Shown here piece by piece: positions 4,816 through 21,980 of a DNA stretch of 64,000 nucleotides (position 1 is the first letter of the stretch; the number at the start of each line of letters is the position of its first letter). The stretch is taken from contig NZ_JAOWKZ010000002.1 in the NCBI RefSeq assembly GCF_025751495.1, forward strand, positions 850,001 through 914,000, written 5' to 3'. The DNA comes from Albidovulum litorale (GTDB taxonomy: Bacteria > Pseudomonadota > Alphaproteobacteria > Rhodobacterales > Rhodobacteraceae). The translations under genes and the position numbers were made by a program. A model generated the notes under the pieces. It was not told where the DNA came from and ran no database searches. It worked only from the letters and a program-made list of their open reading frames with translations.

Positions 4816-4927
4816 CTCCCATCTATGTCGATTCTCAGGGCAAAGCGTGTTGACGACCGTCAATGCGTCCTTGCCCTGCTTGTGAAATAAGAAAGACAAC
4901 ACCTCGCTGCGCAGGAAAGGAATCCGA

Positions 4928-5149
4928 ATGGCTGTCGCAGGGATTCCGACGGTTGGTCATGTCCCTCAGGCGTTCGCTGAATGGCTGAATGACCTTTGTG
5001 ACGATCCCGGCTGTCAGAAAGCGCCGCTCGAAGATTCTGAACCTGCCGCTTCGGCAGTAATAGATCTGCTCCGCCGCCATGTCTCCTGGGGCGAGTTCCA
5101 GCACGTCAAGCGCGCCGTGCGAAAGCCAATTCAAGAACTCTGGGATTGA
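4928..5149 (+). CDS. Short DUF2267-like protein (internally shortened)
   Basis: A 73-aa protein with a good ribosome-binding site (aggaaagga at 4912-4920). Its N-terminus (AGIPTVGHVPQAFAEWLNDL) resembles the beginning of DUF2267 proteins and its C-terminus (VIDLLRRHVSWGEFQHVKRA, then IQELWD) resembles their end. The roughly 60-70 residues normally lying between seem to be missing, without any frame break. DUF2267 proteins have no established function and often sit among stress genes. The family call rests on remembered motif resemblance only. Confidence 0.5.
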   Translation: MAVAGIPTVGHVPQAFAEWLNDLCDDPGCQKAPLEDSEPAASAVIDLLRRHVSWGEFQHVKRAVRKPIQELWD

Positions 5150-5153
5150 GGCA

Positions 5154-6215
5154 GTGCGCGCGGTTTCGACGACCGTGAAAACCGCCAGAAGCGAGGCGGC
5201 ATCGCATGCGGACAAACTTGCCGAGTTGCGGGCCTTTCTGGAAAGTGGCAGGGCTTGGCCCGGCGAACCTCGACCGGAGTGCATCGAAACGCATGCCTCG
5301 CTGGTCTACTTGACGCGCAATTCTGCATGGAAGCTGAAAAAGCCGGTCCGCTTGGTTCATGTTGATCAACAATCCCTGAAAAACCGAACGCACCTTTGCC
5401 GCGAGGAATTGAGGCTGAACAGAGAACTCTCAGGCGATCTCTATCGTGGTTTGACGCCCATCGTCCGGAGGCCCGACGGGTCGTTGGTTCTTGGCGCGGA
5501 GGGGAGCATTGTCGACTGGCTGATCGAGTCGCGGCGGCTACCGGCATCCGAGATGCTGGACGTCCGCCTCGTCGACGGGCCCCCACCTCAGTGTAGCGAG
5601 GTCAAAGCATTCTGCGACGTGTTGGCTGAATTCTACCGGCGCCAACCGAAATCACCCGATGCTGGTGAAGTCTTCTATCGACGTTTGGTGTCAGACAGCG
5701 AGATCGCGGCGGCGCATTTGCGTGAAATGGCATCCAAAACGATGGTGCCGGTCCCCGAGCAGACCTTCGGTTTCGCGGCAAAGGCACTCGAGGCCTGTTG
5801 CAGTGAGATGATCGAGCGCGGCCGACAAGGGCTCATAGTCGAAGGACACGGCGATCTGCGAACCCAGCATGTCTGCCTGATCAGGCCGCCTGTTGTGTTT
5901 GATCGCTTGGAAATCGACCATGGAATACGCTTGCTTGATCCGTTTTACGAGATCAACGGACTTGGTCTTGAATGTAGCCTGATGGGATCAGGTTGGATCC
6001 GTTCGGTTCTACTCGCCGAGCTGTCCCAGACAATGATTCACCCGTCTCGCGAACTGCTGTTTGCCTATGGTGTCGTCGCCTTTTTGACGCGGGCACGCAT
6101 CGCCGCCGACCACTTCAGGGATGCCGAAGTCACAACCCCTGAGAAGTGGCGCGCGAAAACGAAACAAAATGTCGATGCGGCCGTACATTTGGTTGCACAA
6201 GCACGCTCCAACTGA
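5154..6215 (+). CDS. COG2187-type aminoglycoside-phosphotransferase-like protein
   Basis: A protein of about 353 aa with the kinase-fold motif VEGHGDLRTQHVCL near residue 245, corresponding to the HGDL catalytic loop of APH-like enzymes of the COG2187 type. A metal-binding aspartate follows in IDHGIRLLDPFYEING. The substrate is unknown; resistance activity should not be assumed. The start is uncertain: the open frame extends to an ATG at 5079, which would overlap the DUF2267 gene, so I prefer the GTG at 5154, five bases after that gene's stop; a GTG at 5175 is also possible. Confidence 0.7.
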   Translation: MRAVSTTVKTARSEAASHADKLAELRAFLESGRAWPGEPRPECIETHASLVYLTRNSAWKLKKPVRLVHVDQQSLKNRTHLCREELRLNRELSGDLYRGLTPIVRRPDGSLVLGAEGSIVDWLIESRRLPASEMLDVRLVDGPPPQCSEVKAFCDVLAEFYRRQPKSPDAGEVFYRRLVSDSEIAAAHLREMASKTMVPVPEQTFGFAAKALEACCSEMIERGRQGLIVEGHGDLRTQHVCLIRPPVVFDRLEIDHGIRLLDPFYEINGLGLECSLMGSGWIRSVLLAELSQTMIHPSRELLFAYGVVAFLTRARIAADHFRDAEVTTPEKWRAKTKQNVDAAVHLVAQARSN

Positions 6216-6459: not shown

Positions 6460-8916
6460 TTGCAACGCAACGCCCCCATTGAACGGCTTGAGGGATTGTG
6501 GAGCCGGGACGTTGGTCTTTACGGGCCCGAGGTGGCTAAGCGGCTCGCCAAGTATGGACCGAACGCCATCCTTGCAGACAGCTCTTCAGGCTGGCTTGAG
6601 GTTCTTCGCAATACGATTAAAGACCCGATGATCTGGTTTCTCGTCGGGACCGCCACCCTGTTTATCGGTCTGGGTGATTATACAGAGGCGGCCGTTCTTG
6701 CCGCCGCGCTGATCCCGATTGCCGGGATGGACATCTACCTGCACCGGCGGACAGAGGCGTCGACGGAAGGTTTGCGGGCGCGGCTGGCGTCGCAAGCGCG
6801 GGTGATCAGGGATGGGTCAGAACGGGACTTGCCTGCGGTGGGCCTTGTGCCCGGCGATCTTGTGATCGTACCGGCTGGCGCTTACTTCCCGGCTGACGGC
6901 CTGCTCCTCTCCGGCACTGCTCTGCAGGTCGATGAGTCCACCCTGACCGGCGAGGCCATGCCGGTCCGCAAGGAATCGATCTCCCGGCCACCGCAAAATG
7001 CGGCGGGCGTGGGGATCGAGGCTACGCATTGGGGAATGGCCGGGACTCGTCTCCTGACCGGTGAAGCCCGGCTTCGTGTCGCATTGACCGGGAAGGAGAC
7101 GCTCTACGGTGAGATCGCACGTCTTTCGAGTTCGACACGAAACGAACTGACGCCCCTGCAGGACGCTATTGGGCATCTGGTGCGTATTCTCCTCGTGATC
7201 GCCCTTCTCCTTTGCACGGCACTTGCAGTCATCCGGTATGTCCAAGGCTACGGAATAGTGGACGCCCTGCTAAGCGCCATCACCCTGGCGATTGCGGCTC
7301 TGCCGGAGGAGTTTCCTGTTGTCTTCTCTTTCTTCCTCGGGCTGGGCGTTTTCCGCTTGGCCAACCAGCAGGCGTTGGTCCGTCGTGCGGTGGTCGTCGA
7401 AAACATCGGCCGCGTCACCTGCATTTGTACAGACAAGACAGGCACGCTGACCGAGGGGCGCCTGTCGCTTGATCATGTGGTCCCGGCTGCCGGCCTGTGT
7501 CGCGAGGACGTTCTCGCGATCGGTGCCACGGCATCCCGCGCGGAAACGTCAGATCCGCTGGATCAGATCCTCTTGAAGCATGCGTCCGCCTGGCATGTCG
7601 CGGTTGAAGCCGTCTTCCCCTTCACAGAGGACCGCCTGCGGGAGACAGCCATCGTACGGGTGGCAGATCAAGGCTGGCGCGCAGCCATGAAGGGTGCGCC
7701 CGAGACCGTTCTCGCCATGTGCGACCTGACGACCGAGGACCGCGAAACCTGGCTTCGACAAACACATGAGCTTGCGTCTTATGGGCACAAGGTGATCGCC
7801 GTCGCCACGAATTCGCTCAGCTCGTGGACCGACGAGGAGCCGCAAGCCGGCTTCGCCTTCGCAGGCATCCTCGCATTCTCCGATCCGGTGCGGCCCGGTG
7901 TCCGTGAGGCCGTGGGCGAGGCGCAGCGTGCCGGAATCCGCGTCATCATGATCACCGGCGATCATGCCCGAACCGCCAGGGCGATCGCGCGTGAGATCGG
8001 GATCGGCGGCCCTGAGCCTTTGGTCATCGACGGTGCCGGTCTGGAAGCGCAACGCAAGCAAACCCGAGGGCGGATTGACTTTGACGTCGTGGCGCGGTGC
8101 ACGCCCGCCGAAAAGCTGGCTCTGGTCAAGGCGTTGCAGGCGCGGGGCGAACTGGTCGCGGTCACCGGGGACGGCGTGAATGATGCACCGGCGCTTCGCG
8201 GCGCGGACGTGGGTATCGCGATGGGTGAACGCGGGACGCGATCGGCGCGCGAAGTGGCGCCAATCGTGTTGCTCGACGACAATTTCAAGACGATCGTCCG
8301 GGCAATCGCAGAGGGACGACAGCTCTTCGTCAATCTGCGGCTCAGCTTCGCGTATCTTCTGATGCTGCACGCACCCCTGGTCGCGACAGCCGCTTTGATC
8401 CCTCTTCTCGGCTATCCGCTGCTCTACCTGCCGATCCACATCGTTTGGATCGAGCTGATCATGCATCCGACGGCCATGCTTGTATTCCAGAACTTTCCAT
8501 CACGAGATGTACTGGGCCTCGCAGGCAAACGGCGACGGCTGCGCTTCTTTTCGCCGCCGGAATGGTTCAGGATCGTGCTTGTCGGGACGATGGCGACCGT
8601 GGTCATCCTCGGCGGCTACATATTCAATCTCGGCGCGGATCTAAACGTTCCTCACGCGCGGTCGATGGCGATCATGGTTCTCGTGATTGCAAGCGGTGCC
8701 ATAACTGCCGCCTTGACGCGCCTTCGTACTCGGCCCGCGGTGCTGGCCAGCCTGCTTCCTGTCGTATCTGGATTGTTGGCCACGCAGTTGCAGCCGGTTT
8801 CTGCTCTGCTCCATCTTTCTCCTCTACACTTGGCGGATTGGATCATCGCCGCAAGCGCCGCAGTCGCGATCTATGCGGTCGCCGCCTTTTTCGAGAGTGA
8901 GAACTGTCGGCAGTAG
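6460..8916 (+). CDS. P-type cation-translocating ATPase (P2/calcium-type)
   Basis: An 818-aa E1-E2 ATPase of the inner membrane. In order: a cation-ATPase N-terminal domain (GLYGPEVAKRLAKYGPN), two helices, the actuator domain with LTGEAMP near residue 162, the ion-site helix with PEEFP near 282 (PEGLP in textbook Ca2+ pumps), the phosphorylation motif CTDKTGTLT near 323, the hinge GDGVNDAP near 570, and a C-terminal helix bundle. It probably exports Ca2+ or another divalent or monovalent cation. The start is TTG at 6460; ATGs at 6441 and 6444 are out of frame. The 244-nt gap upstream shows nothing distinctive. Confidence 0.88.
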   Translation: MQRNAPIERLEGLWSRDVGLYGPEVAKRLAKYGPNAILADSSSGWLEVLRNTIKDPMIWFLVGTATLFIGLGDYTEAAVLAAALIPIAGMDIYLHRRTEASTEGLRARLASQARVIRDGSERDLPAVGLVPGDLVIVPAGAYFPADGLLLSGTALQVDESTLTGEAMPVRKESISRPPQNAAGVGIEATHWGMAGTRLLTGEARLRVALTGKETLYGEIARLSSSTRNELTPLQDAIGHLVRILLVIALLLCTALAVIRYVQGYGIVDALLSAITLAIAALPEEFPVVFSFFLGLGVFRLANQQALVRRAVVVENIGRVTCICTDKTGTLTEGRLSLDHVVPAAGLCREDVLAIGATASRAETSDPLDQILLKHASAWHVAVEAVFPFTEDRLRETAIVRVADQGWRAAMKGAPETVLAMCDLTTEDRETWLRQTHELASYGHKVIAVATNSLSSWTDEEPQAGFAFAGILAFSDPVRPGVREAVGEAQRAGIRVIMITGDHARTARAIAREIGIGGPEPLVIDGAGLEAQRKQTRGRIDFDVVARCTPAEKLALVKALQARGELVAVTGDGVNDAPALRGADVGIAMGERGTRSAREVAPIVLLDDNFKTIVRAIAEGRQLFVNLRLSFAYLLMLHAPLVATAALIPLLGYPLLYLPIHIVWIELIMHPTAMLVFQNFPSRDVLGLAGKRRRLRFFSPPEWFRIVLVGTMATVVILGGYIFNLGADLNVPHARSMAIMVLVIASGAITAALTRLRTRPAVLASLLPVVSGLLATQLQPVSALLHLSPLHLADWIIAASAAVAIYAVAAFFESENCRQ

Positions 8917-9012: not shown

Positions 9013-9978
9013 TCATCGGTCAGCCGCGAGAATTGACTTTAGGTGCAGCTCATACAGCAGTTCGACACCGTCGCGGTTTAGGTGATCGGTGTCGAAATAC
9101 AGCGCCGGGTCGTCGAGTGTCGCACTCAGATCGTGAAGCGGCACGTCCAGCCCGGAGAGGCGTGCGCGAAGCTTGGCATCAAAAGCCGCTTCACCGGGCA
9201 GCGATTCACGGAAGGCCTCGGGAACCGGCGGCCTGACAATGGCAACCTCCATCCCGGCTACCCGGGCACGGGCGATCATGCCTTCTAGTGTGTCCAGGTA
9301 CCGGTCGAGTTTTGTGTCATCGACTGGTTCGGGGTAGAGGTAGTCGATTCTTGCCTTTGTCGCGTGACGCGATGGGCGAAAGACGCGGTCGAAGTGTTCA
9401 GCCCCGCGCCAGTCATCCTGTGGGAACCGGTCGGGCGGGTTCAGTTTCGAAAACACCGTAGCGTAGTCGAGAAGCGCGCTTGCGGGGACATCTTGGGAGA
9501 TGACCAGATTACTCATTGTCACCAGCGTGGACAGCCTGAGCGGCGTCTTGCGCAGAAGCTTCCTGTCGGCGATCCGTTCCTCGTTCCAACGCGATGAGTG
9601 GAAAGCGAAGGAATCCGCGATATAGAGCAACCGACGGGGTCGCAGGTCTTCGATCGCCTGCAGCAGAACGAAATCACTAAAGAGCGGCCCGGCCCCCACT
9701 TCGGCCAGTACGATCATGCGCTGCCCCGTCTCATCCTCCAGCCGTTTGGCAACATCGCCGAATGCGAGCGGCAGGGCATGAGACGCGCCAAGGACGATCC
9801 AGTCGAATTGCCCGTCTTTTACAGTAAGGATCTTTTGAAAAGCCGAACCTCCCGCCTCCCGTCCGACGCGGACTTCCGCGACGGAGGCAGCGGCAACATA
9901 AAGGGCGAAGAATAGCCCTAGAAATCCGGCAAGGCCGATCACAGGCAGTCTCGGCGGTTTGCGGCGAAAGCTGTTCAT
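9013..9978 (-). CDS. SGNH-hydrolase-like membrane-anchored protein (AlgJ/AlgX-like partner of MBOAT)
   Basis: A 321-aa protein with one N-terminal membrane helix (about residues 12-35) and a predicted periplasmic SGNH-type domain. A GASH segment puts a candidate nucleophile at Ser66, and DTDHLN near the C-terminus gives Asp296 and His299, completing the triad of SGNH acetyltransferases/esterases. Its start is 11 nt after the MBOAT stop, the usual pairing of a membrane acyl exporter with a periplasmic acyl-transfer enzyme. The longer open frame to 10293 is not used. It is the last gene of a seven-gene minus-strand operon. Confidence 0.75.
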   Translation of the reverse strand: MNSFRRKPPRLPVIGLAGFLGLFFALYVAAASVAEVRVGREAGGSAFQKILTVKDGQFDWIVLGASHALPLAFGDVAKRLEDETGQRMIVLAEVGAGPLFSDFVLLQAIEDLRPRRLLYIADSFAFHSSRWNEERIADRKLLRKTPLRLSTLVTMSNLVISQDVPASALLDYATVFSKLNPPDRFPQDDWRGAEHFDRVFRPSRHATKARIDYLYPEPVDDTKLDRYLDTLEGMIARARVAGMEVAIVRPPVPEAFRESLPGEAAFDAKLRARLSGLDVPLHDLSATLDDPALYFDTDHLNRDGVELLYELHLKSILAADR

Positions 9979-9989
9979 ACGGCGGCCTT

Positions 9990-11417
9990 TCAGAATTGCA
10001 TGTAGACGAAGGCTTCGCTCTGCCAGCGGCCAAGGAATATCAGTGCGAAGAGACAGGCATACCAGATGAGCCAGCGCAGGGCGCGCGGCGCGGCGGCGAA
10101 GCGGTCCTCGATGCCGTGGCGTTCCAGCACGGTCTCGACGGCAAGCAGAGCGGCGATGAGACTGCCGAGTAACACATGCTCGGAGGTGAAGGGATAGCGG
10201 GGCAGAAGCGAGGGCAGTTCTGGCAGATTTTGCCAGATGCGCGTCAGGATCATCGTGGCGTCGCCGAGGTTGCCCGCGCGGAAGAACACCCAACTGATCA
10301 AGATCAGATGAAACACCACTAAGACGGCAAGCGCCGTGTGTATCTTGGCCGCCCAGGTCTTGCCAAGCAGTTTCCGAAACCTCTTCCGCACAGGATTGAG
10401 CGCCCGTTCACCCCAAATATAAATTCCATTCAGGAGGCCCCAGACGATGAACCCCCAGCCAATGCCGTAGCCCAGCCCGGCATGCCAAATGCCGCTAAGC
10501 ATGAACACGATCATCAGCCCTGCATACATCCGCCAGGTTTTTCGGTCCGGTCCAGCGATGGGGTAATAGACGTAGTCGCGGAACCAGTCTGCGAGCGAGA
10601 CATGCCAGCGCCGCGACCAGAACTCTCCGATCGAATGCGCAAAATACGATCGGCGAAAGTTCTCGGACAGGTTGATCCCGAACAGCCTCGACGTTCCGCG
10701 TGCGATATCGGTATAGCCAGAGAAATCACAATAGATCTGGAAGGCGAAAAAGTAGCTCGCGATGATCAGTTCGAGCGGCACTGCATAGGCCGGGATGGCA
10801 TAGGTGCGATCGACAAAGGGCGCGAGGTTGTCGGCGATCACAACCTTCTTGACGAGACCCCAGAGAATGAGCTGGCATCCGGTCGCGAATTGCGGCCAGG
10901 TCAGCGGCGACGTGTCGGTCAACTCGTTCACGAACGGCCCGATCCGCTCAATCGGCCCGGCGAGGATCTTTGGGAACCAGGTCAGATAGAGCACGTCCTG
11001 CGCATCGTTCGGCTGTGCACCAGGGTCGCGATATCGGTCGATGATAAGCGCAATGGCAGTGAAGGCGTAGAAGGAGAAGCCGACAGGGGAGGTCAGGCCG
11101 AGCGCCGGCAAGGCCCCGGTGCCTGCGGCAAGCGGATCATAGTATTTCAAGAGACCCATCAGCGCGAGTATAGCGAGCGTCCCACTCCAAAGCGCCAAGC
11201 ACCGCACGACCGGTGACTCGGCCTTTAGCACGTGCCCGACGATCAGGACTATGATGACGATTGCGCTGAGATGGATGAGATTCTCCAACCCGAAACTGCC
11301 GTAGAAGACGATGCTGGCGAGAACCAGCCATGGCAGCCGAAATCGCACGGGCAAACGCCAGAAGATGACGACCGCGATCGGCAGGAACAACAGGAATTCG
11401 AGCGTGTTGAACAGCAT
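9990..11417 (-). CDS. MBOAT-family O-acyltransferase (AlgI-like)
   Basis: A 475-aa polytopic membrane protein starting MLFNTLEFLLFLP, as AlgI/DltB-type MBOAT proteins do. Family motifs include WFPKILAGPIERI near residue 150, FAFQIYCDFSGYTDIARG near 225 and the catalytic His312 in SGIWHAGLGYG. Known members move an acetyl group across the inner membrane to a periplasmic SGNH partner that modifies a polysaccharide. Here the partner gene follows directly and the upstream neighbour is a c-type cytochrome gene 36 nt away, so both appear to belong to the ThDP/cytochrome operon. Confidence 0.9.
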   Translation of the reverse strand: MLFNTLEFLLFLPIAVVIFWRLPVRFRLPWLVLASIVFYGSFGLENLIHLSAIVIIVLIVGHVLKAESPVVRCLALWSGTLAILALMGLLKYYDPLAAGTGALPALGLTSPVGFSFYAFTAIALIIDRYRDPGAQPNDAQDVLYLTWFPKILAGPIERIGPFVNELTDTSPLTWPQFATGCQLILWGLVKKVVIADNLAPFVDRTYAIPAYAVPLELIIASYFFAFQIYCDFSGYTDIARGTSRLFGINLSENFRRSYFAHSIGEFWSRRWHVSLADWFRDYVYYPIAGPDRKTWRMYAGLMIVFMLSGIWHAGLGYGIGWGFIVWGLLNGIYIWGERALNPVRKRFRKLLGKTWAAKIHTALAVLVVFHLILISWVFFRAGNLGDATMILTRIWQNLPELPSLLPRYPFTSEHVLLGSLIAALLAVETVLERHGIEDRFAAAPRALRWLIWYACLFALIFLGRWQSEAFVYMQF

Positions 11418-11453: not shown

Positions 11454-12020
11454 TCAGTACGAAGCGCCGCCTGCGCGCAGTTCCGGCGGGATCTGGTCGA
11501 TCGGAATCCCGGCATTGATCACCAGGTAATCCGCCAGCGCCTCGCGCTCGGCGGGCGTTGTCGCGATCTCGACATGGCTGGGCGAGTTCATGGTACGAAG
11601 CCACGCCTCCTGCGTCCGGTCCTGGGTAACGACGACGGTGATGATATGGCAGGACTGGCAGAGCGCCAGTGCCATATCGCGCCCGTCGCGGGGCAGTTCG
11701 GCATCGGCCGCGAGGGGCGCATTCGCGGCGAGGTAATGCGCGAGAGTATCGGTCTGCCAGCTGTCTAGCGCCTCAATCGCAGGCACGTCGGCCTTTGCGG
11801 CCTCCAGACGTCCGCCCCAGGCATCGGCATCGCCGCTTTCCGAAGCGATCGCAGCCTCCAGCACCGCGGACAAGCCATCCGCGCGTGCGTTCTGAAGAAG
11901 TGTTCTGCCGCCCTCCGGGATGAAGTCGAAAACATCCTCCTGCGCCAGCGCGACGGTGGCCATGCCGACCCCGAGCACGACCGTCGCAAGAATTACGGGA
12001 CGGTGGGGAAGCAATCTCAT
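11454..12020 (-). CDS. Exported mono-heme c-type cytochrome, copy 1
   Basis: A 188-aa protein with a Sec-type signal peptide (MRLLPHRPVILATVVLGVGM, cleavage probably after ALA) and one haem-attachment motif CQSCH at residues 121-125. It is a paralog of the adjacent upstream gene: the mature N-terminus (DVFDFIPEGG against DDFAFMPAGG), the haem position and the C-terminal PPEL all match. It probably accepts electrons in the periplasm. It follows copy 2 by 23 nt in the operon with the exported E1 enzyme. Confidence 0.85.
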   Translation of the reverse strand: MRLLPHRPVILATVVLGVGMATVALAQEDVFDFIPEGGRTLLQNARADGLSAVLEAAIASESGDADAWGGRLEAAKADVPAIEALDSWQTDTLAHYLAANAPLAADAELPRDGRDMALALCQSCHIITVVVTQDRTQEAWLRTMNSPSHVEIATTPAEREALADYLVINAGIPIDQIPPELRAGGASY

Positions 12021-12043
12021 TGGCGCGGACTCCCGTCTAAGCG

Positions 12044-12598
12044 TCAGAATCTGAGTTCCGGCGGCACGTCATCGAATTTCAGCGGCATGTTGATGGCGGA
12101 ATAGTGGGCGAAGGTATCACGCTCCACCTCGCTCATCGGGATCTCGGCGTGGAACGGCGCCTTGAAGGTGCCGCGCCAGTTGGTTTCATCCCGGTCCTGC
12201 ATGAGATAGCCGGTGAACAGCGAGTGGCAGAACTGGCACTGGGCGATCGCCAGTTCCTTGCCGTCGGGCGGCAGGAGCCCGGGATCGCCGGTTTCCACGA
12301 GCGACTGCGCCGTTTCAGCGACGACGGGGAAATTCAGCGCGGCATAGCCCGCGAAGGTCTCGATAGCGGCATCCGTGAGGTGGGGATTGCGTTTGCGCGC
12401 CCAGGCGGCCCACTCCTCGGCGCTCGCCTCGCGGGCGGCGGCTTCGGCGAGGCCCGCCGGGTCGCCGGGCAGAAGCGACTCCGAAAGGATTGAACCGCCG
12501 CCGGCCGGCATGAAGGCGAAATCGTCGCCCTGGGCCAGCACAGTCGCGGCCGACAGACCGACCGCGACAACCGCAGACAAGAGCCGCTTAACGCTCAT
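12044..12598 (-). CDS. Exported mono-heme c-type cytochrome, copy 2
   Basis: A 184-aa protein starting MSVKRLL with a signal peptide ending near VLAQ and one haem motif CQFCH, also at residues 121-125. A methionine in INMPLKFDDVPPELR near the end could be the distal haem ligand. Start chosen at 12598 rather than 12613 because the signal peptide begins there. Its 5' end overlaps the YgiT-like gene by 11 nt, which supports one transcript. Confidence 0.85.
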   Translation of the reverse strand: MSVKRLLSAVVAVGLSAATVLAQGDDFAFMPAGGGSILSESLLPGDPAGLAEAAAREASAEEWAAWARKRNPHLTDAAIETFAGYAALNFPVVAETAQSLVETGDPGLLPPDGKELAIAQCQFCHSLFTGYLMQDRDETNWRGTFKAPFHAEIPMSEVERDTFAHYSAINMPLKFDDVPPELRF

Positions 12599-12956
12599 CG
12601 CTCCCGCCTCCATCCCCTCGCCTCGGCGTCTCGAAGATGAAGACCGGCACGATCAGCTCACGTGCCGCCTCAGCAGACGGAAAGCCGCCCCCCTTCAGCA
12701 TGTCTAGCCGCATCGCCGTCTCGTCCTCATAGAACTGCTCGCCGCACTGCCGGCAAACGAAGGCGGGCACGTCCTCGACCACGACAAGCCTGCCGCCGGA
12801 CCAGAGCGCGGTCTTGATCCGGTCACGCGCGAGACGACCGTTGCCGCAGGACTCGCAGCGTGGGGCGGCGGCGTCCACCGGGCCCACCGTCGCCCCCCTG
12901 CCGCGCTCCGCCTCAGCCGACGAGGGCACGGGCCGCTCCTGCGATTCCTTCGGCAT
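12588..12956 (-). CDS. YgiT-type zinc-finger protein
   Basis: A protein of about 122 aa with two CxxC knuckles (CESCGNGRL and CRQCGEQFYED) spaced as in YgiT-type zinc fingers, which occur in MqsA-like antitoxins and stand-alone proteins. No HTH domain and no toxin gene are visible, so an antitoxin role is unsupported. The start is uncertain: ATG at 12956 would overlap the E1 beta gene by 44 nt, and a GTG at 12929 is possible. Its place inside a tight operon suggests a regulatory or metal/assembly role. Confidence 0.65.
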   Translation of the reverse strand: MPKESQERPVPSSAEAERGRGATVGPVDAAAPRCESCGNGRLARDRIKTALWSGGRLVVVEDVPAFVCRQCGEQFYEDETAMRLDMLKGGGFPSAEAARELIVPVFIFETPRRGDGGGSDER

Positions 12957-13884
12957 TCGGACGCATCCAGAGGAACATCTCGGGCGATGCCGGCGGCGGC
13001 GCGTCCGGGAAGGCCACACGCTTGAACTTCGCGCCCTCGACGTTCTCGGCGCAGCGCGCGACGACCTCGGCTCCTGGCGCGAGCGTGTAGTAGGACTGGT
13101 CCACGGTCAGGAGCCGCTTGGTCTTGGCGACCGAGTTGACGAGCGTTTCGGTGTCCATCTCCTTCAGGACCCGCAGGTCGATGACCTCGACCCCCATGCC
13201 CTCGCCCTTGAGCACCTCCGCAGCCTCCAGCACGCCCGGCATGCCGCCGCCAGAGCTGACGATGGTGATGTCGCCCCCTTCCATTCGAACCGCCGCCTTG
13301 TCGAGCGGCACCTCGTAGGGCTCGTCGGGCACTTCCTCGGTCAGGGTGCGAAGGCCAGCCGGGTAGAGATAGACCACCGGATCGGGCGAGCGCAGCGCGG
13401 CGTGCATCATCCCCTTCGCGTCGTACGGCGTGGACGGGATGACCGTCCGCACACCTGGGATGTGCATGTAGAAGCTGTCCTCCTCATAGCAGGAATGCTG
13501 CCCCGCGAAGCCTGGTGTCTGGCCGGTCATCTCAATTACCCAGACGACCGGCATCGAAGCCTTTCCTCCGGTCATGTGGCGGAGCTTTCCTGCGACGTTC
13601 TGGATCACCTCCAGGGGCATCAGCGCGCCCTGATAGGGGATGTAGGTCGCCGAGCGCGAACCGGCGAGACCGGCACCGAGAACGGCCGAGGCCATCCAGT
13701 TTTCGTCGATGCCGGTATTGACCACGCGCTTGCGTCCAAACTCGGTTTCCAGGTTGATCACCGGCAGCCCGGGGTTGGAGGCCACAGGCGGCGTCAGCTC
13801 GAATATCCAGGTCATGGCAGGATCGTCCTGCATTTCCTTCTGCACGGCTTCGAGGACCGCGTACATCCAGCTTTTCTCAGTCAT
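12913..13884 (-). CDS. ThDP-dependent dehydrogenase E1 component, beta subunit
   Basis: A 323-aa transketolase-like protein with the E1 beta fold: pyrimidine-binding domain (ETEFGRKRVVNTGIDENW with the conserved glutamate, about residues 46-63) and the C-terminal transketolase domain (VEVIDLRVLKEMDTETL near 235). Relatives are the beta subunits of pyruvate, branched-chain and acetoin dehydrogenases. It has no signal peptide, so if its alpha partner is exported by Tat, it would have to be carried along in a folded complex. No E2 or E3 gene is nearby. It starts 34 nt after the alpha gene. Confidence 0.88.
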   Translation of the reverse strand: MTEKSWMYAVLEAVQKEMQDDPAMTWIFELTPPVASNPGLPVINLETEFGRKRVVNTGIDENWMASAVLGAGLAGSRSATYIPYQGALMPLEVIQNVAGKLRHMTGGKASMPVVWVIEMTGQTPGFAGQHSCYEEDSFYMHIPGVRTVIPSTPYDAKGMMHAALRSPDPVVYLYPAGLRTLTEEVPDEPYEVPLDKAAVRMEGGDITIVSSGGGMPGVLEAAEVLKGEGMGVEVIDLRVLKEMDTETLVNSVAKTKRLLTVDQSYYTLAPGAEVVARCAENVEGAKFKRVAFPDAPPPASPEMFLWMRPNAEGIAGAARALVG

Positions 13885-13918
13885 GGTCGTGTCCTTTCAG
13901 ATGCGGGGTCGCGGTGGC

Positions 13919-15142
13919 TCAGCCGAACTGGCGTATGGCGACCGTTCCCTCTGCGAAGACGTGCTTTAGGCCGTCCTCGGGCGTGCAAAGCGGCTGCGAG
14001 AGGCCCCATTCGAAGGCCTCCGCGATCTCGGCCTTGACCTCGTCCTCGATCTGGCCGGCGCGGACGTCGTCGAAGACGCCCCAATCGACGAGGATCTTGC
14101 GGGCTATGTCGACCGGATCGCGCTGCATCCAGGCGCGGACTTCGCGCTCAGGCCGGAACGAGGTGATGGCGAGCGGGTCGTAGCCGAAAGCGCCAAGCTC
14201 GCCCTCCTTCGCGCCGGGGGCGCCCCAGTGGTTATAGTAGCGATAGGTCTTCGCCTCGATGAAGGTCGGTCCGCCGCCAGCGCGGGCGCGGTCCACCGCC
14301 TCCTTGGCCACGTTGTAGACCTGCGTCACGTCCTGTCCGTCGACCGTGCGTGCCGGGATGCCGTAGGCGGCAGCGGCGTCGGCGATGTCAGTATGCGGGC
14401 AGGAATAGGAATAATGGGCGTACTGGTGATAGAGGTTGTTCTCGCACACATAGATCAGCGGTAGGTCCAGGATCTTCGCGTTGTTGAGCGTGGAGTGGAA
14501 ATGCGGCGCGGCGTAGTTGCCGTCGCCCGCGAACACCACCGCCACCTGGTCCGATCCCCGCGCCCGGAAGGCGAAGGCGGAACCCGAGGCGATGACGGGC
14601 GCGGGCCCGATCATCCCGTCCGCGCCGATGAAGCCCACCGACGGGTCGGAGATATGCATCTCGGCCGCGTAGCCGCCGTTCATGCCAGTTGCACGGAAGT
14701 CCATTTCGGCGACCATCGTGGGGATATCCACGCCCTTGGCGATGGCGTGACCCGAGGGCCGGTGCGACGAATAGACGAGGTCGATCTGCTCGAACGGCCC
14801 GTCGTTGCGCAGGGCGGCGCAGACGCCGGTCGCAACCGCCTCCTGCCCGGCATAGAAGTGGTTGTAGCCTCGGTAGTCGGGGTTCCCCAACATCTGGTCT
14901 GCCTGGGTGCGTTCATGCCAGCGGATCTTCAGGATGGTCCTGTACATGTCGATAAGCCTGTCGTCTGGCAGGTCCATCGCGTGATAGCCGATGTCGCCAT
15001 TTGCAAGCGCGCGCCGCGTCGAAACCGAAACAGCGGCGCCGGTCAGTGCGGCAAGCTTGAGAAAGCCGCGGCGGCTTTCCGATTCAGGCACGTGACCATC
15101 GTCTTGAGGGTAGGTCACCTCATGTCCGTCATGATCTTTCAT
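13919..15142 (-). CDS. Tat-exported ThDP-dependent dehydrogenase E1 component, alpha subunit
   Basis: A 407-aa protein with a clear twin-arginine signal: SRRGFLK at about residues 23-29, a hydrophobic stretch, then RRALANGD with likely cleavage after ALA near residue 47. The mature part is an E1 alpha subunit: HFYAGQEAVATGVCAALR, the SHRPSGHAIAKGV segment, and the ThDP/Mg motif GDGNYAAPHFHSTLNNAK ending before CENN. Known E1 enzymes are cytoplasmic and pass the acyl group to lipoyl E2; here there is no E2 and two exported cytochromes c follow. First gene of the operon; 212 nt separate it from atpG, presumably holding its promoter. Confidence 0.88.
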   Translation of the reverse strand: MKDHDGHEVTYPQDDGHVPESESRRGFLKLAALTGAAVSVSTRRALANGDIGYHAMDLPDDRLIDMYRTILKIRWHERTQADQMLGNPDYRGYNHFYAGQEAVATGVCAALRNDGPFEQIDLVYSSHRPSGHAIAKGVDIPTMVAEMDFRATGMNGGYAAEMHISDPSVGFIGADGMIGPAPVIASGSAFAFRARGSDQVAVVFAGDGNYAAPHFHSTLNNAKILDLPLIYVCENNLYHQYAHYSYSCPHTDIADAAAAYGIPARTVDGQDVTQVYNVAKEAVDRARAGGGPTFIEAKTYRYYNHWGAPGAKEGELGAFGYDPLAITSFRPEREVRAWMQRDPVDIARKILVDWGVFDDVRAGQIEDEVKAEIAEAFEWGLSQPLCTPEDGLKHVFAEGTVAIRQFG

Positions 15143-15354
15143 TTCGTCCTCCCAACAACAGAGTCAGCACCACCAAGCCAATGAGGCGCTGGGACTGTTT
15201 TTTAGGGTGAACCTTGGGACAAATGTTGTCATTGACGCGCGTCAGTCGACTGCCGAACTGGTCCGATTCGTGATCATCCGCGACCGCGCTCCGGCAGTTC
15301 AGCATGCGAAATGCCCCCAACCATAACAGGCGCTGGCGACCGCCTCTGGCTTCT

Positions 15355-16245
15355 TCACCCGCTCTCGGTTTTGCGCACGGATTCGAAACCAGCGAGAATG
15401 TCGATCAGTTCGCGCGTGATCGCCTCTTGCCGCTTTTGCCGGAACTCTCCCATCAGGCCTTCGCGATGCTCGCCGATATTGCGTTCGGCCCTTTGCATCG
15501 ACGCGAGGCGCGAAGCGTGTTCGCTCGCAAGGGACTCGGCCAGCGCACGGTAAAGCTGGACGAAGATCCGCTGGCCAACGAGCCAGGACAGGAGCTTGCC
15601 GCGTTCCATCCGGTAGATCGGCAGGCGACGCGATGGCCATGAGGCGCGGGCGAGGCCTTCGAGATAATCACACGGCACCGGCAGAAGCTGCCAGTCAGTC
15701 GGTGCACCGGGCCCCATGCCCTCGCGGCGATTGAAGAGTATCGAGACGGTGCCGACGTCGCCCGCTGTCCAGCGTTCGACCTCTACCGCGAGGGCATGGA
15801 CGGTGGACACCAGTCCGCCGACGGAACCAGGTAGGAGAAAAAGCGTGTCAGGGGCGCGGCCGGCCGCCTTGAGCCGCGCTGCGACCCGCTGGCCGACCAC
15901 GCAGAGATGCCGAGGGTTCCCACTGGCTTCGCCGGCCATCCGGTCCAGCGCGAACTGGCCGATCCGGTCGTTGAAGCGCCCGCAGAGGCCCCGGTCTGAA
16001 CCTATGACGATCAAAGCGCAGCCGCGCCGCGTATCGCCCGGCAGGTCCGGTCGGATGCGACCCCCTTCATCACCGAGGACGATCTGCAGCCCGAGCGAGA
16101 TGGTGCGCTCAAAATCCTCCATCGTTTCAACCGCGTGCTCATACTGACGAATGCTCGCGGATGAGAGCGACTTCATCGTACGGACAATGGAATGGATGTC
16201 GCCCGTCGTGCGAAGCCGTGCGGAAAGCGCCTCAAGCGACTGCAT
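15355..16245 (-). CDS. atpG: N-ATPase gamma subunit
   Basis: A 296-aa central-stalk subunit. The N-terminal helix (LRTTGDIHSIVRTMKSLSSA) and the C-terminal helix (MGEFRQKRQEAITRELIDIL) are the paired coiled coil that rotates in the alpha/beta hexamer; SDRGLCGRFN near residue 97 is a family signature. Start taken at 16245 (MQSLEAL) rather than 16278. Last gene of the operon, overlapping atpA by 14 nt. Confidence 0.93.
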   Translation of the reverse strand: MQSLEALSARLRTTGDIHSIVRTMKSLSSASIRQYEHAVETMEDFERTISLGLQIVLGDEGGRIRPDLPGDTRRGCALIVIGSDRGLCGRFNDRIGQFALDRMAGEASGNPRHLCVVGQRVAARLKAAGRAPDTLFLLPGSVGGLVSTVHALAVEVERWTAGDVGTVSILFNRREGMGPGAPTDWQLLPVPCDYLEGLARASWPSRRLPIYRMERGKLLSWLVGQRIFVQLYRALAESLASEHASRLASMQRAERNIGEHREGLMGEFRQKRQEAITRELIDILAGFESVRKTESG

Positions 16246-17791
16246 TGCCGCTCTCCGCTTCCGTGCGCAGGTCTGCAACGGCGGTATCCACCGCGGTCAT
16301 CAACGCGTCGCGGTCCGCGGAATCGAGCTCGGCGCCGCCTTCGATCCCGGCACAAAGATCGGGGCAGGCATCGCGCACCGCCTTTGCCGCGCGGCGGCCC
16401 GCCTCGGCCACACGGTCGGCTGGGATCGTGTCGAAGAGCCCTTCGGTCGCGGCCAGCAGGACGGCGATCTGCGCTGGCACGTCAAGCGGCACATGTTCTG
16501 GCTGTTTCAGAACTTCCCGTACCCGCCGCCCGCGGTTGAGCCGGTTGCGCGTCTCGGCGTCGATCTGTGTACCAAAGCGGGCGAAGGTTTCCAATTCTTC
16601 GAACTGAGCGTAATGAAGGCGAAGGTCGCCCGCCACGGCACGGAAGGCTGGAAGTTGCGCCTTGCCACCGACGCGGCTGACCGAGGTGCCGATGTCGATC
16701 GCGGGAAGCTGGCCCTTCTCGAAAAGCTCGGGTGAAAGATAGATTTGCCCGTCAGTGATCGAGATGAGGTTGGTCGGGATGAAGGCGGAGATGTTCTGAG
16801 CCTGGGTCTCGATCACCGGCAGCGCGGTCAGTGAGCCCCCGCCATGTTCCTCCCGAAGGCGCGTCGAACGTTCGAGAAGTCGGGAGTGAATGTAAAAGAT
16901 GTCGCCGGGATAGGCTTCGCGGCCCGGTGGCCGGCGCAAGAGAAGCGACAGTTCGCGATAGGCACGGGCATGCCGGGTCAGATCGTCGTAAACAATGAGA
17001 ACGTCGCGCCCTTCGTCCATGAAATGCTCGGCCATGGTTGTCGCCGCGTAGGGTGCGATGAACTGCAGCCCCGGTGCATCGTCGCCGCTAGCGACGACGA
17101 CAATACTGCGATCCAGCGCCCCAGCTCTGCGCAGCGTGTCGATCACCCGGGCCACGGCGGAGGCACGTTGACCGATGGCGCAGTAGACCGAGATCACGCC
17201 GCTCTGCTTCTGGTTCAGGATCGCATCGATCGCTATGGAGGTCTTGCCGGATTGCCTGTCGCCGATGATCAGTTCACGCTGGCCGCGGCCAATCGGGACT
17301 GCGGCGTCGATGGCCGTTATGCCGGTCTGGAGGGGCGCGCAGACAGGCGCGCGGCGCATAATCGGCGGCGCGGTGCGCTCCACCGGCGCCCGTTCGTGGC
17401 TGCGAACAGGCCCTCCTCCATCGAGCGGATGGCCTAGAGGATCGACCACACGGCCGAGAAGCGCCGCGCCAACCGGCGTGTCGACGATGCGCCGCATTCG
17501 GTGGACCTTATCGCCGGGCCGGATGCGTTCGGTGCCGCCGAGGACGATGACGCCGACCCGATCCGCTGCGAGGCTCGACGCGATGCCGATGCCGCCACCG
17601 GCGAAGGTCACAAGCTCATCGGCGCACAGGTCCGGGAAGCCGGCAATCCGGGCGATGCCATTGCCGACGCTGAGGACGCGCGCGATGTCGGCGATCTCGA
17701 TCGCAGGTTCGGCTTCCGCGAGCATCCGGTCCATCCGGTCGAATAGGCTCTCGGCGAGACGTTCGGCGATAGTGGGGTTCTCAAGCTGCAT
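16232..17791 (-). CDS. atpA: N-ATPase alpha subunit
   Basis: A 519-aa non-catalytic nucleotide-binding subunit with the P-loop GDRQSGKTS near residue 165 and the alpha-type segment SVSRVGGKAQLPAFRAVAG near 370. Start at 17791 (MQLENPTIAERL), overlapping the end of atpF by 11 nt. In N-type operons alpha precedes gamma and no delta subunit gene is present, as seen here. Confidence 0.94.
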   Translation of the reverse strand: MQLENPTIAERLAESLFDRMDRMLAEAEPAIEIADIARVLSVGNGIARIAGFPDLCADELVTFAGGGIGIASSLAADRVGVIVLGGTERIRPGDKVHRMRRIVDTPVGAALLGRVVDPLGHPLDGGGPVRSHERAPVERTAPPIMRRAPVCAPLQTGITAIDAAVPIGRGQRELIIGDRQSGKTSIAIDAILNQKQSGVISVYCAIGQRASAVARVIDTLRRAGALDRSIVVVASGDDAPGLQFIAPYAATTMAEHFMDEGRDVLIVYDDLTRHARAYRELSLLLRRPPGREAYPGDIFYIHSRLLERSTRLREEHGGGSLTALPVIETQAQNISAFIPTNLISITDGQIYLSPELFEKGQLPAIDIGTSVSRVGGKAQLPAFRAVAGDLRLHYAQFEELETFARFGTQIDAETRNRLNRGRRVREVLKQPEHVPLDVPAQIAVLLAATEGLFDTIPADRVAEAGRRAAKAVRDACPDLCAGIEGGAELDSADRDALMTAVDTAVADLRTEAESGNAVA

Positions 17792-18563
17792 CGGCCGCCT
17801 CGCTGGCCGCGCTGTCGAGGCTTTCGCCGACAAGAGTCTCGATCCGGTCAAGATAGCGGCTGGCGGACCATTCTAGGACCTGGTGGCCAAGTGTCAGGCG
17901 GATGCCGAGAAGTACATCCGCGTCGGTCCGGTATTCGACCTCGATCCCCTCCGCGATATGCTCGTGGACCGCGCGCGTGATGCGCCCGCGCGCGGTCGAG
18001 GCTAGCTCCATGCCGCTTTCGAGCAGAGCGGGTTCGTGCATCTTCACCGCCGCCAGTTCCAACCGCAGACGCTCCTCTTCCCCCAAAGACGCCAGCCGAA
18101 GAGAGAATTCTGTCGCAACCTGATCGGCAAGATCGGTATCGGCGAAGTCCGACAGAATGCGCCGCACGGAATCGCTGACATGGGCGGCCATGCGCTTTTG
18201 CATGTGAAGCGCGATCTCTGCCCGGTTCTCCTTGAGATGGTCGAGCCATGCGGCATGTTTCTGCTCGGCCTCGATGCGCAGTTCCTGTTCCAGACGTTTG
18301 CGCAATGCCTCAGCCTCTTCGTGCACCTTCGCCAATTCGCCCTCTCGGGCATCATCGAGGGTTCGCTGCTGTTGTCGCAGCGTTTCGGCCTCGGCTTCCG
18401 CGTCTTCCCGCGCGTGACGGGCGTCCAAGAGACGATCCGCGATTCGTCTTTCGCGCCGCGCCATCGCGCCGGTGATCGGACCGTAAAGGAAACGCTTTAA
18501 CAGCCAGATGAGGGCGAGGAAATTCACAAGCTGCGCCGCAACGGTCAGCCAATCGATCTGCAC
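17781..18563 (-). CDS. atpF: N-ATPase b subunit (extended)
   Basis: A 260-aa peripheral-stalk protein: one N-terminal helix (IDWLTVAAQLVNFLALIWLL) then a long charged coiled coil to about residue 150 and a C-terminal domain. It is about 100 residues longer than usual b subunits, as typical for N-ATPases, which lack delta. Start is a GTG at 18563, four nt after atpE; an upstream ATG at 18590 would overlap atpE. Confidence 0.9.
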   Translation of the reverse strand: MQIDWLTVAAQLVNFLALIWLLKRFLYGPITGAMARRERRIADRLLDARHAREDAEAEAETLRQQQRTLDDAREGELAKVHEEAEALRKRLEQELRIEAEQKHAAWLDHLKENRAEIALHMQKRMAAHVSDSVRRILSDFADTDLADQVATEFSLRLASLGEEERLRLELAAVKMHEPALLESGMELASTARGRITRAVHEHIAEGIEVEYRTDADVLLGIRLTLGHQVLEWSASRYLDRIETLVGESLDSAASEAADAA

Positions 18564-18567
18564 GATC

Positions 18568-18843
18568 CTATCCTCCGGCCGCCGCCGCAATCTCCACGAA
18601 CGGATTGGCGAACAAGAGGATCATCGCAACGACGAAGCAGTAGATGGCGGTGGATTCGATCATCGCGAGACTGACGAACAGCGTCCGGGTGATCGTGTTC
18701 GTTGCATCGGGCTGTTGGGCAATTGCCGTCAGCGCCTGCGCGGCGGCACGGCCTTCGGCGAGCGCGGGGGCGATGGCGCCGATGGTGATGGTCAGTCCCG
18801 CCGTCACGATGGAGACGATGGCGATCCAGATTGATGCGTCCAT
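18568..18843 (-). CDS. atpE: N-ATPase c subunit (rotor ring)
   Basis: A 91-aa two-helix hairpin. Helix 2 carries the ion-binding glutamate in IESTAIY, giving the ESTxxY pattern known from Na+-binding rings. Helix 1 has a second carboxylate (APALAEGRAAA) where the well-studied Na+ rings carry glutamine. Such two-carboxylate c subunits are characteristic of N-ATPases. Whether Na+ or H+ is carried cannot be decided from sequence. Confidence 0.93.
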   Translation of the reverse strand: MDASIWIAIVSIVTAGLTITIGAIAPALAEGRAAAQALTAIAQQPDATNTITRTLFVSLAMIESTAIYCFVVAMILLFANPFVEIAAAAGG

Positions 18844-18845
18844 GG

Positions 18846-19550
18846 TCAGGGTTCCTTTCGGGTTGCGTCATCTGGTGAGGGTAAAGGCTGTGTTCGCGCG
18901 GCCGAGGCGATATAGACCATCGCGAGGACAGCGAAGATGTAGGCCTGAATGAAGCCGGTCAGCAGTCCAAGCACCTGCATCATCACCGGAAAGAAGAACG
19001 GCGCCACGCTGATGATGATGCCGACGATGACCGTGCCGCTCATCACGTTGCCGTAAAGCCGGACGGCGAGCGCCACCGTCCGCGACACCTCGGCGACGAG
19101 GTTGAAGGGCAGCATGAAGGGTGTCGGACTCAGGTAGGTTCTCAGATATCCGACGATCCCCTGTCGCGCGATCGAGAAGGCAGGCACCGCGATCAGGACG
19201 GCGATCGCAAGCGCCGCCGTGGTGGAAAGCGACCCCGTCGGCGGTCGGTAGCCCGGAACCACCGACAGAAGATTCGAGGTGACGATGAACAGGAAGAGCG
19301 TGCCGATAAACGGCAGATAGCGGTCTCCCTCTTCGGCGCCGATCTCGGCGATCTGATCGCGGATGCCGGTGACGATGACCTCCAGCATGACCTGCCAGCG
19401 CGACACCGACTCACCCGTCGACAGCCGCGAGGTGATCAGCCAGGAGCCAAAGGTCAGGATGAGCATCACGAGCCATGTGAAGGCGATCGTGGCGTTGAGC
19501 CTGGTTCCCTGCCATTCGGCAAGTATCCATTGGTCCGGACTGATCTGCAT
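18846..19550 (-). CDS. atpB: N-ATPase a subunit
   Basis: A 234-aa membrane subunit forming the ion channel against the c ring. The essential arginine lies in RTVALAVRLYGNVMSG, followed by FIQAYIFAVLAMVYI, the usual C-terminal helices. Start at 19550 (MQISPDQW), 2 nt after atpR; the longer open frame to 19763 overlaps atpR and is rejected. Confidence 0.93.
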   Translation of the reverse strand: MQISPDQWILAEWQGTRLNATIAFTWLVMLILTFGSWLITSRLSTGESVSRWQVMLEVIVTGIRDQIAEIGAEEGDRYLPFIGTLFLFIVTSNLLSVVPGYRPPTGSLSTTAALAIAVLIAVPAFSIARQGIVGYLRTYLSPTPFMLPFNLVAEVSRTVALAVRLYGNVMSGTVIVGIIISVAPFFFPVMMQVLGLLTGFIQAYIFAVLAMVYIASAARTQPLPSPDDATRKEP

Positions 19551-19552
19551 GG

Positions 19553-19831
19553 TCAGCCCTCCCCCGGTTCGCGCGACAGGGCGCGGACGATTACCACACG
19601 CGCCGCGATGAAGCCGAGGGCCGCGCCTGCAAGCTCCGGCAAGCCGCCGCCTAGGGTGAGGACGAGCATGATCCCGGCGGGGATCAGCGCCAGCCGGGCT
19701 AGCGCCGCCAGCGTGAAGGCGCTGTAGCCGCCCGTTACTGTGAACGCGCGCGTCGCCCGCCACAGGAGACCGAAATAGAGCATGCCGATCGCCGTTCCCG
19801 CGACTGCGGCCATGATAAGTGTTGCCGTCAT
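19553..19831 (-). CDS. atpR: N-ATPase accessory subunit AtpR
   Basis: A 92-aa protein with three hydrophobic helices and a conserved arginine within the membrane part (ALARLALIPAGI). AtpR is found only in N-ATPase operons, between atpQ and atpB, and is thought to help c-ring assembly or ion binding. Start at 19831 (MTATLIMAAV). Confidence 0.85.
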   Translation of the reverse strand: MTATLIMAAVAGTAIGMLYFGLLWRATRAFTVTGGYSAFTLAALARLALIPAGIMLVLTLGGGLPELAGAALGFIAARVVIVRALSREPGEG

Positions 19832-19847
19832 CCCACCCACCTCCGGT

Positions 19848-20137
19848 TCAATCGTCGCGCCCTTCGCGCTGGACCCAGTACCAGGCGTTGAGGCAGCCGA
19901 GCGCCGCGCCGGCAATGAGCAGGACGAGGGTCCATGACGTCCCGGACGCCGTTCGCGCGTCGATCCAGAGACCGAGCGCGATCCCCGCTACCGTCGGCAC
20001 CGCCACCGCCCAGCCAACCAGCCCGAAAAGGCCGAGCCCATACCAGGCGTTCCGGCGCGGCCGGCGCTGTGCGTCCTGCTTTAGTCTGGCTTTGCGCACG
20101 ATCTCGTCGGCGTCACGCCTGCCGTTGCCGTTGCCGT

Positions 20138-20141
<4 letters not shown>
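19848..20141 (-). CDS. atpQ: N-ATPase accessory subunit AtpQ (AtpI-like)
   Basis: A 97-aa protein with a basic N-terminus (residues 1-32) and two membrane helices (about 33-55 and 67-88), matching the AtpQ/AtpI assembly-factor type. It overlaps atpC by 4 nt and precedes atpR by 16 nt, the position expected for AtpQ. Confidence 0.83.

Positions 20142-21980
<1,839 letters not shown>

Follow-up and report, generated by a model that had tools for sequence, protein, structure and literature searches.

ThDP (thiamine diphosphate)-dependent oxidation of 2-oxoacids by E1 enzymes takes place in the cytoplasm or in mitochondria. What, then, could be the function of an E1 whose alpha subunit starts with a twin-arginine translocation (Tat) signal and whose genes are followed by two cytochrome c genes? 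Such an E1 is encoded in the DNA analysed here, a stretch of 64,000 nucleotides from Albidovulum litorale (hereafter the window; contig NZ_JAOWKZ010000002.1, positions 850,001 to 914,000). The original prediction for this stretch had described an operon of four genes between 11454 and 15142, encoding the two E1 subunits and two cytochromes c. All four genes were found at these positions, but they are part of a seven-gene operon on the minus strand (Table 1), and a YgiT-type zinc-finger protein, an MBOAT acyltransferase, an SGNH acyltransferase-like protein and an FNR/FixK-like box had been overlooked. Our preferred interpretation, which we put forward tentatively and rate somewhat below an even chance, is that the operon encodes an extracytoplasmic ThDP dehydrogenase that would deliver electrons to its own cytochromes and the acyl group to the SGNH/MBOAT pair, and that would be used at low oxygen.

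Conservation of the operon

GTDB species genomes were scanned with patterns taken from one alpha protein, a procedure that favours close relatives, and this yielded 54 loci with 68-91% identity to E1 alpha, all from the Alpha- and Betaproteobacteria and subgroups thereof. MBOAT was detected in 49 of these loci and SGNH in 45, while the two cytochromes (hereafter cytA and cytB), whose co-occurrence with the E1 the original prediction had singled out for checking, were both present in 51, the three misses lying at contig ends. All six BLAST-detectable genes were found in 45 loci, always in one order and on one strand (45 of 45); in the other nine, every missing gene fell at a contig end, where no more than 295 bases remained. 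The zinc-finger protein, recognized by paired CxxC motifs between beta and cytA, was encoded in all 51 loci checked.

A far more divergent copy (locus L103 of genome G802), with identities of 40% for alpha, 43% for beta, 41% for MBOAT and 36% for SGNH, contained the same seven genes in the same order. A Tat-like signal was again present, and the two cytochromes, with the motifs CTSCH and CTVCH, were too divergent for BLAST alignment at E 0.001. A tree built from 18 E1 alpha rows joined this copy to the Tat-bearing family by a split with 100/98 support, although the tool gave a long-branch warning.

Export and catalytic equipment of the E1

The alpha subunit scored 17.6 bits against the NCBIfam model TAT_signal_seq, barely above its cut-off of 16.7. 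All 51 homologs whose N-terminus could be read (alpha is truncated there in the other three loci) had a twin-arginine motif followed by a hydrophobic stretch and spaced from the core as expected, which argues against a chance resemblance, and an AxA sequence lay behind the motif in 48 of them. The features expected of a Tat substrate (twin arginine, hydrophobic stretch and AxA-like site) are therefore all in place. None of the 51 lacked the Tat region, as might have been seen had the start codon been misassigned. Neither arginine (R24 or R25) varied across the 28 aligned rows, and three E1 alpha paralogs of the same genome that could be aligned have no N-terminal extension. From the presence of the motif in all 51 homologs we infer that E1 alpha is exported, as originally predicted. 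Could the region instead be Tat-like without working as a signal, the enzyme staying in the cytoplasm? The narrow margin of the NCBIfam score would suit this, as would the beta subunit, encoded directly next to alpha and, as had been stated, showing no signal peptide; the near-perfect conservation of motif and AxA site, the two invariant arginines, the survival of the signal in the 40%-identity copy and its absence from the paralogs make it a very improbable explanation.

The E1 itself appears complete. The GDG and ENN motifs of the ThDP domain, on which the original prediction had relied, and the histidine of the active-site loop were invariant in 28 of 28 aligned alpha rows. The glutamate and histidine of beta that align with catalytic residues in solved E1 structures were likewise invariant, and presumably have the same roles here. 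Pyruvate dehydrogenase-type alpha and beta domains, ThDP motif and catalytic residues thus occur together, although alpha scored only 217.7 bits with the pyruvate dehydrogenase E1 alpha equivalog TIGR03182, under its curated cut-off of 393.85. A Pfam search of both subunits returned only E1_dh, TPP_enzyme_C and transketolase domains, and no domain for flavin adenine dinucleotide (FAD) or an iron-sulphur cluster. One departure from the canonical enzyme is an insertion, 14-16 residues long, behind the loop histidine (YRYYNHWGAPGAKxGxLGAFGYDP), which is absent from the three aligned own-genome paralogs and recognizable in the divergent copy by a YRYYxHxGxxG...GxxGAFG pattern. In canonical E1 enzymes this active-site loop lies near the lipoyl docking site, and the insertion may serve a partner other than a lipoyl domain.

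Missing E2 and E3 partners

The original prediction had pointed out that no lipoyl E2 or E3 is encoded at the locus, and this was confirmed. Neither the E2 nor the E3 that would be encoded with a pyruvate dehydrogenase-type E1 accompanies this one in its own genome, where no E2, E3-family or strong lipoyl match was found near the locus. Among eight E1_dh matches in this genome, others than the one studied here account for the E2 genes, since all four of these (PF00198) lie within ~5 kb of another E1 and none is on the operon's contig; an E2 encoded elsewhere, together with a cytoplasmic alpha subunit, was what the original prediction had said would count against it. The sole lipoyl-type match on the contig was weak (21.7 bits, 22.8 with its neighbours) and more than 500 kb away. 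Five E3-family matches (PF02852) are all on other contigs, from where a distant E3 could still serve this E1. One relative (G016, locus L107, 15619-16980) has, ~3 kb downstream of the operon, another E1 alpha/beta pair of ordinary appearance, with identities of 32% and 30%.

The two cytochromes

The original prediction of two paralogous mono-haem cytochromes in one operon agrees with our reading, each protein having a single CxxCH motif and a Sec-like start, the latter judged by eye. All parts of the operon can be assigned to known families, apart from the cytochromes: the window copies of cytA and cytB had no Pfam match at E 0.001 and no NCBIfam match at E 0.01. Weak similarities were nevertheless obtained with their relatives and with profiles. 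PF13442 matched 13 of 27 cytA homologs; the cytB profile matched, in the PDB, a designed c555 cytochrome trimer (E 6.2e-5, though no single stretch passed), quinohemoprotein amine dehydrogenase 1jmx (E 0.0086) and the sulfite dehydrogenase SorB (E 0.48); and the cytB of locus L048 gave NCBIfam matches to SorB and an amine dehydrogenase (E 0.014 and 0.02). A cytochrome-profile match in genome G342 (L070) was set aside as not belonging to this operon; its neighbour reads like a sulfite dehydrogenase, an assignment made outside any family search.

The cytochromes also bear on whether the reaction is oxidative at all. E1-like alpha-beta enzymes such as AcoAB can act on acyloins, so that an exported ThDP enzyme forming acyloins or cleaving hydroxyketones, with cytochromes there for another purpose, has some appeal. 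We consider it quite improbable, as a pair of cytochromes accompanies every copy for which the contig is long enough, and this points to oxidation.

In locus L020 the first haem cysteine of cytA is missing and the MBOAT and SGNH frames are broken, and in L026 the SGNH frame is broken; both are metagenome assemblies, in which decay and sequencing error look alike.

A putative acyl relay

The MBOAT profile matched DltB chains at E ~1e-31. The conserved histidine and C-terminal FxYxxF motif of an MBOAT relay protein were both found, H312 being invariant in 25 of 25 aligned rows and FxYxxF ending 44 of 46 full copies (the exceptions being one AIYMQF and one broken frame). In SGNH, the serine and Asp-His blocks are represented by S66, D296 and H299, again invariant in 25 of 25 rows; both blocks were recognized by a strict pattern in 38 of 45 copies and in 42 when variant spellings were counted, leaving the broken frames of L020 and L026 and the copy in L047, which stops at a contig end. 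The structure model of SGNH (predicted local distance difference test, pLDDT, 93.6) had DltD as its best PDB match by E-value (3.5e-6), with PatB lower down; at a TM-score of 0.48, and with general GDSL hydrolases scoring similarly, the fold indicates an SGNH protein and not DltD in particular. According to one study (PMC12148441), the tyrosine of the FxYxxF motif of PatA is acetylated, and an acetylated peptide containing it acts as donor for the SGNH partner PatB. Judged from these motifs, the MBOAT and SGNH proteins are parts of a working acyl relay, situated beside a kind of enzyme that makes acyl groups.

Would this pair have to take its acyl group from the E1? According to the main rival explanation, it would not: the exported E1 would be a respiratory dehydrogenase only, releasing a free carboxylate and sending electrons to the cytochromes, and MBOAT and SGNH would be a separate pair for O-acylation of the envelope, sharing the operon just through common induction at low oxygen. 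Pyruvate oxidases show that an acyl intermediate on ThDP can be released as the acid by hydrolysis, and both acyltransferases carry the known motifs of ordinary envelope acylation. A mere sharing of induction fits less well with a seven-gene order kept down to ~40% identity, or with a family sample in which all eight genomes with SGNH also carry E1 alpha; nor was a polysaccharide synthesis gene seen in the 10 scanned of 16 recurrent flanking clusters listed. On balance we find this explanation unlikely, though it deserves serious consideration.

A further possibility is outward acylation, in which the E1 with its cytochromes and the MBOAT would both supply the same acyl group and SGNH would place it on an envelope polymer, lipid or protein. 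The SGNH partners of MBOATs normally acylate an acceptor outside the cell, as stated in PMC12148441, and nearby genes encode, as in the Dlt pathway, an AMP-binding ligase in 9 of 54 loci and an acyl carrier protein in 8 of 54. It would be redundant, however, to supply a single acyl group from two sources, and no acceptor or polymer synthesis gene was recognized in the operon, so that we regard this alternative as distinctly unlikely. The ligase and carrier genes are worth recording in their own right: in L015 (5796-7817) and L050 (5780-7866) they stand directly upstream on the same strand, and together with MBOAT and SGNH they resemble the Dlt gene set.

An FNR-type box upstream of alpha

The arrangement TTGAY-N4-RTCAA was found exactly in 22 of 51 regions upstream of alpha and with at most one mismatch in 39, compared with averages of 1.6 and 3.8, respectively, in random 350-bp stretches of the same loci and of 0.04 and 1.15 in first-order resampled sequences. 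It was the best of 60 half-site arrangements, itself included, and near relatives count separately in these figures as the redundancy filter removed none of the 51 regions. The box matches the target of FNR, FixK and DNR described in PMC2908626; an upstream site of this type is thus indicated by its enrichment across the family, the window copy having one mismatch. This suggests low oxygen as the relevant condition. In 12 of the 54 loci, CRP/FNR-type regulators are encoded close to the operon. In eight loci (L022, L024, L026, L028, L031, L035, L043 and L061) a CRP/FNR-family match, oriented like the operon, ends no more than ~0.9 kb upstream of alpha; the query for these matches was another copy in L024, the sole one checked with Pfam.

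Proposed mechanism and its weak points

In the mechanism that we favour, E1 alpha would be exported in folded form by Tat, carrying beta along, and its ThDP would decarboxylate a 2-oxoacid, with pyruvate as the default guess. The two cytochromes would accept the two electrons singly, replacing lipoamide, E3 and nicotinamide adenine dinucleotide (NAD), and would pass them on to the respiratory chain. The acyl group would go to the SGNH/MBOAT pair and not to a lipoyl E2, via an ester on the SGNH serine and the tyrosine of FxYxxF; the motifs are there, and it is their function in this setting that we presume. An FNR/FixK-type regulator would induce the operon at low oxygen or by nitric oxide, assuming that the sites observed are bound, and the zinc-finger protein may, as a guess, help assembly or export. 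As to direction, we would guess that the acyl group moves inward to coenzyme A, in which case the unit would amount to a trans-membrane pyruvate dehydrogenase: a Tat-exported E1, two cytochromes substituting for lipoate, E3 and NAD, and an inward SGNH-MBOAT relay to coenzyme A in place of E2. In this full form we think the idea unlikely to be right.

Several observations weigh against our proposal. The beta subunit has no signal of its own, and the loop insertion of the divergent L103 copy is ~6 residues shorter. A whole-fold search with the structure model of cytB (mean pLDDT 84) returned no match with E under 0.001; as the profile matches of cytB are also weak, the electron role of the cytochromes is deduced from their haem motif and their constant gene neighbours. 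No box within one mismatch was found in 12 of the 51 upstream regions, nor in L103. We know of no precedent for the hand-over of an acyl group from ThDP to the serine of an SGNH protein, and in known MBOAT-SGNH pairs the acyl group moves outward. Finally, cytochromes at this potential are energetically wasteful electron acceptors when set against NAD.

As regards the original prediction of an exported dehydrogenase coupled to cytochromes, we infer that export and joint function with the cytochromes are well supported, since the Tat, co-occurrence and E2 checks came out accordingly. The omission of the zinc finger and of the MBOAT-SGNH pair left that reading without a possible acyl destination, as the relay is present in every complete copy.

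Distribution, gene layout and neighbourhood

In sampled genomes, with the own genome included in each count, the unit was found in 5 of 61 near relatives at a strict threshold. The alpha profile matched 9 of 248 family and 1 of 398 phylum genomes at E 1e-75, a threshold that would miss more divergent copies; the cytB profile matched 3 of 385 class genomes, one match being unrelated; and the SGNH profile matched 8 of 248 family, 1 of 319 phylum and 2 of 308 class genomes, one of them with a fragment. Distribution across near relatives, family and phylum samples is thus patchy. In the ninth family genome with alpha (G997) the SGNH match covers only 58 residues near a contig end. In G089 (L109, 4769-5065) only a C-terminal piece of SGNH was found, perhaps left over from an operon since lost. 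Within the genus, identity is 72% for one copy and 86-91% for three, which suggests that the operon was transferred between lineages. The window's host has a genome of 4.05 Mb, and the nearest named carriers of this E1 belong to the Rhodobacteraceae/Paracoccaceae. As named isolates of marine and soil bacteria are among the carriers, the system is directly testable.

On plasmids, 304 records matched the window alpha and 311 the L103 alpha, none reaching 60% identity in either search; three of the former, chosen for N-terminal reach from 25 listed, were inspected and rejected as ordinary E1s with an E2 neighbour.

Table 1. Features of the operon in the window (positions in the 64,000-nucleotide stretch).
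Feature	Position	Strand	Remarks
FNR/FixK-like box	15232..15245	-	CTGACGCGCGTCAA, one mismatch to TTGAYNNNNRTCAA; begins 103 bp before the alpha start codon
E1 alpha with Tat signal, ThDP dehydrogenase (PF00676), 407 aa	13919..15142	-	E1_dh 174.8 bits
Predicted Tat signal peptide, ~residues 1-47	15002..15142	-	SRRGFLK, hydrophobic stretch, ALA cleavage-like site
E1 alpha insertion of 14-16 residues, approximate place	14177..14227	-	After the conserved active-site-loop His
E1 beta, 323 aa	12913..13884	-	Both transketolase domains match; no signal peptide seen
YgiT-type zinc-finger protein	12588 to ~12956	-	TIGR03831 49.1 bits; overlaps the end of beta; start codon inferred
Mono-haem cytochrome c (cytA)	12044..12613	-	CQFCH, one CxxCH; Sec-like signal
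Mono-haem cytochrome c (cytB), cytA paralog	11454..12020	-	CQSCH, one CxxCH; Sec-like signal
MBOAT acyltransferase	9990..11417	-	MBOAT match 69.5 bits; C-terminal FVYMQF (FxYxxF) acyl-shuttle motif
SGNH acyltransferase-like protein	9013..9978	-	N-terminal helix, GASH and DTDH blocks; start codon inferred

Directly upstream of the operon, the window contains a second F1Fo ATPase cluster (15355-21935; N-type by our reading), genes of which are present in only four of the 54 relatives' loci (L019, L020, L026 and L050). On the other side lie a phosphoribosyl pyrophosphate-synthetase-like gene with a neighbour (3838-6215) and a P-type cation ATPase (6460-8916), which recur near the operon at varying distances in several relatives. 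ATPase genes, phosphoribosyltransferase, universal stress protein, AMP-ligase and carrier protein were considered as operon members and excluded, because their positions vary and they occur in minorities of loci only. On the minus strand of L103 (bases 1-1380), a gene reading like a TRAP-type large permease, as judged outside any family search, ends ~2.7 kb upstream of the divergent operon.

Comparison with known systems

To our knowledge, no system with an exported E1 has been described. Among titles and abstract starts of the open PMC literature we found no description of this operon, of an exported E1 or of an E1 with an MBOAT; most subscription papers and all preprints lie outside this literature, and the combination of exported E1, cytochromes and acyl relay is thus likely, not proven, to be new. 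If correct, the proposal would add a new kind of entry point to respiration and perhaps a new way of moving acyl groups across a membrane.

The closest relatives of the enzyme are the alpha2-beta2 E1 components of the pyruvate and branched-chain 2-oxoacid dehydrogenase complexes, with which it has both domains and the catalytic residues in common; it differs from them in its Tat signal, cytochromes, MBOAT-SGNH pair and loop insertion, and in that neither an E2 nor a strong lipoyl match was found at its locus. Acetoin dehydrogenase AcoAB is also an alpha-beta E1-type enzyme, but whereas two of the three inspected plasmid matches (below 40% identity) adjoin an annotated acetoin dehydrogenase E2, the E1 of the operon has no E2 partner. 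PatAB, DltB/DltX/DltD and AlgI-type acylation systems share with the operon an MBOAT with an invariant histidine and an FxYxxF C-terminus and an SGNH partner; here this pair is fixed to a Tat-signal E1 and cytochromes, and no acceptor polymer genes were recognized. The haem subunits of sulfite dehydrogenase (SorB) and quinohemoprotein amine dehydrogenase show weak profile similarity to cytB, but the operon's cytochromes are longer, paired, far below the curated cut-offs and placed beside a ThDP enzyme. The pyruvate oxidase PoxB and pyruvate:ferredoxin oxidoreductase, finally, carry out ThDP-dependent oxidative decarboxylation without lipoate, to which the E1 of the operon may be likened; unlike them, it has no FAD or iron-sulphur domain by Pfam and instead combines a Tat signal with cytochrome c genes alongside.

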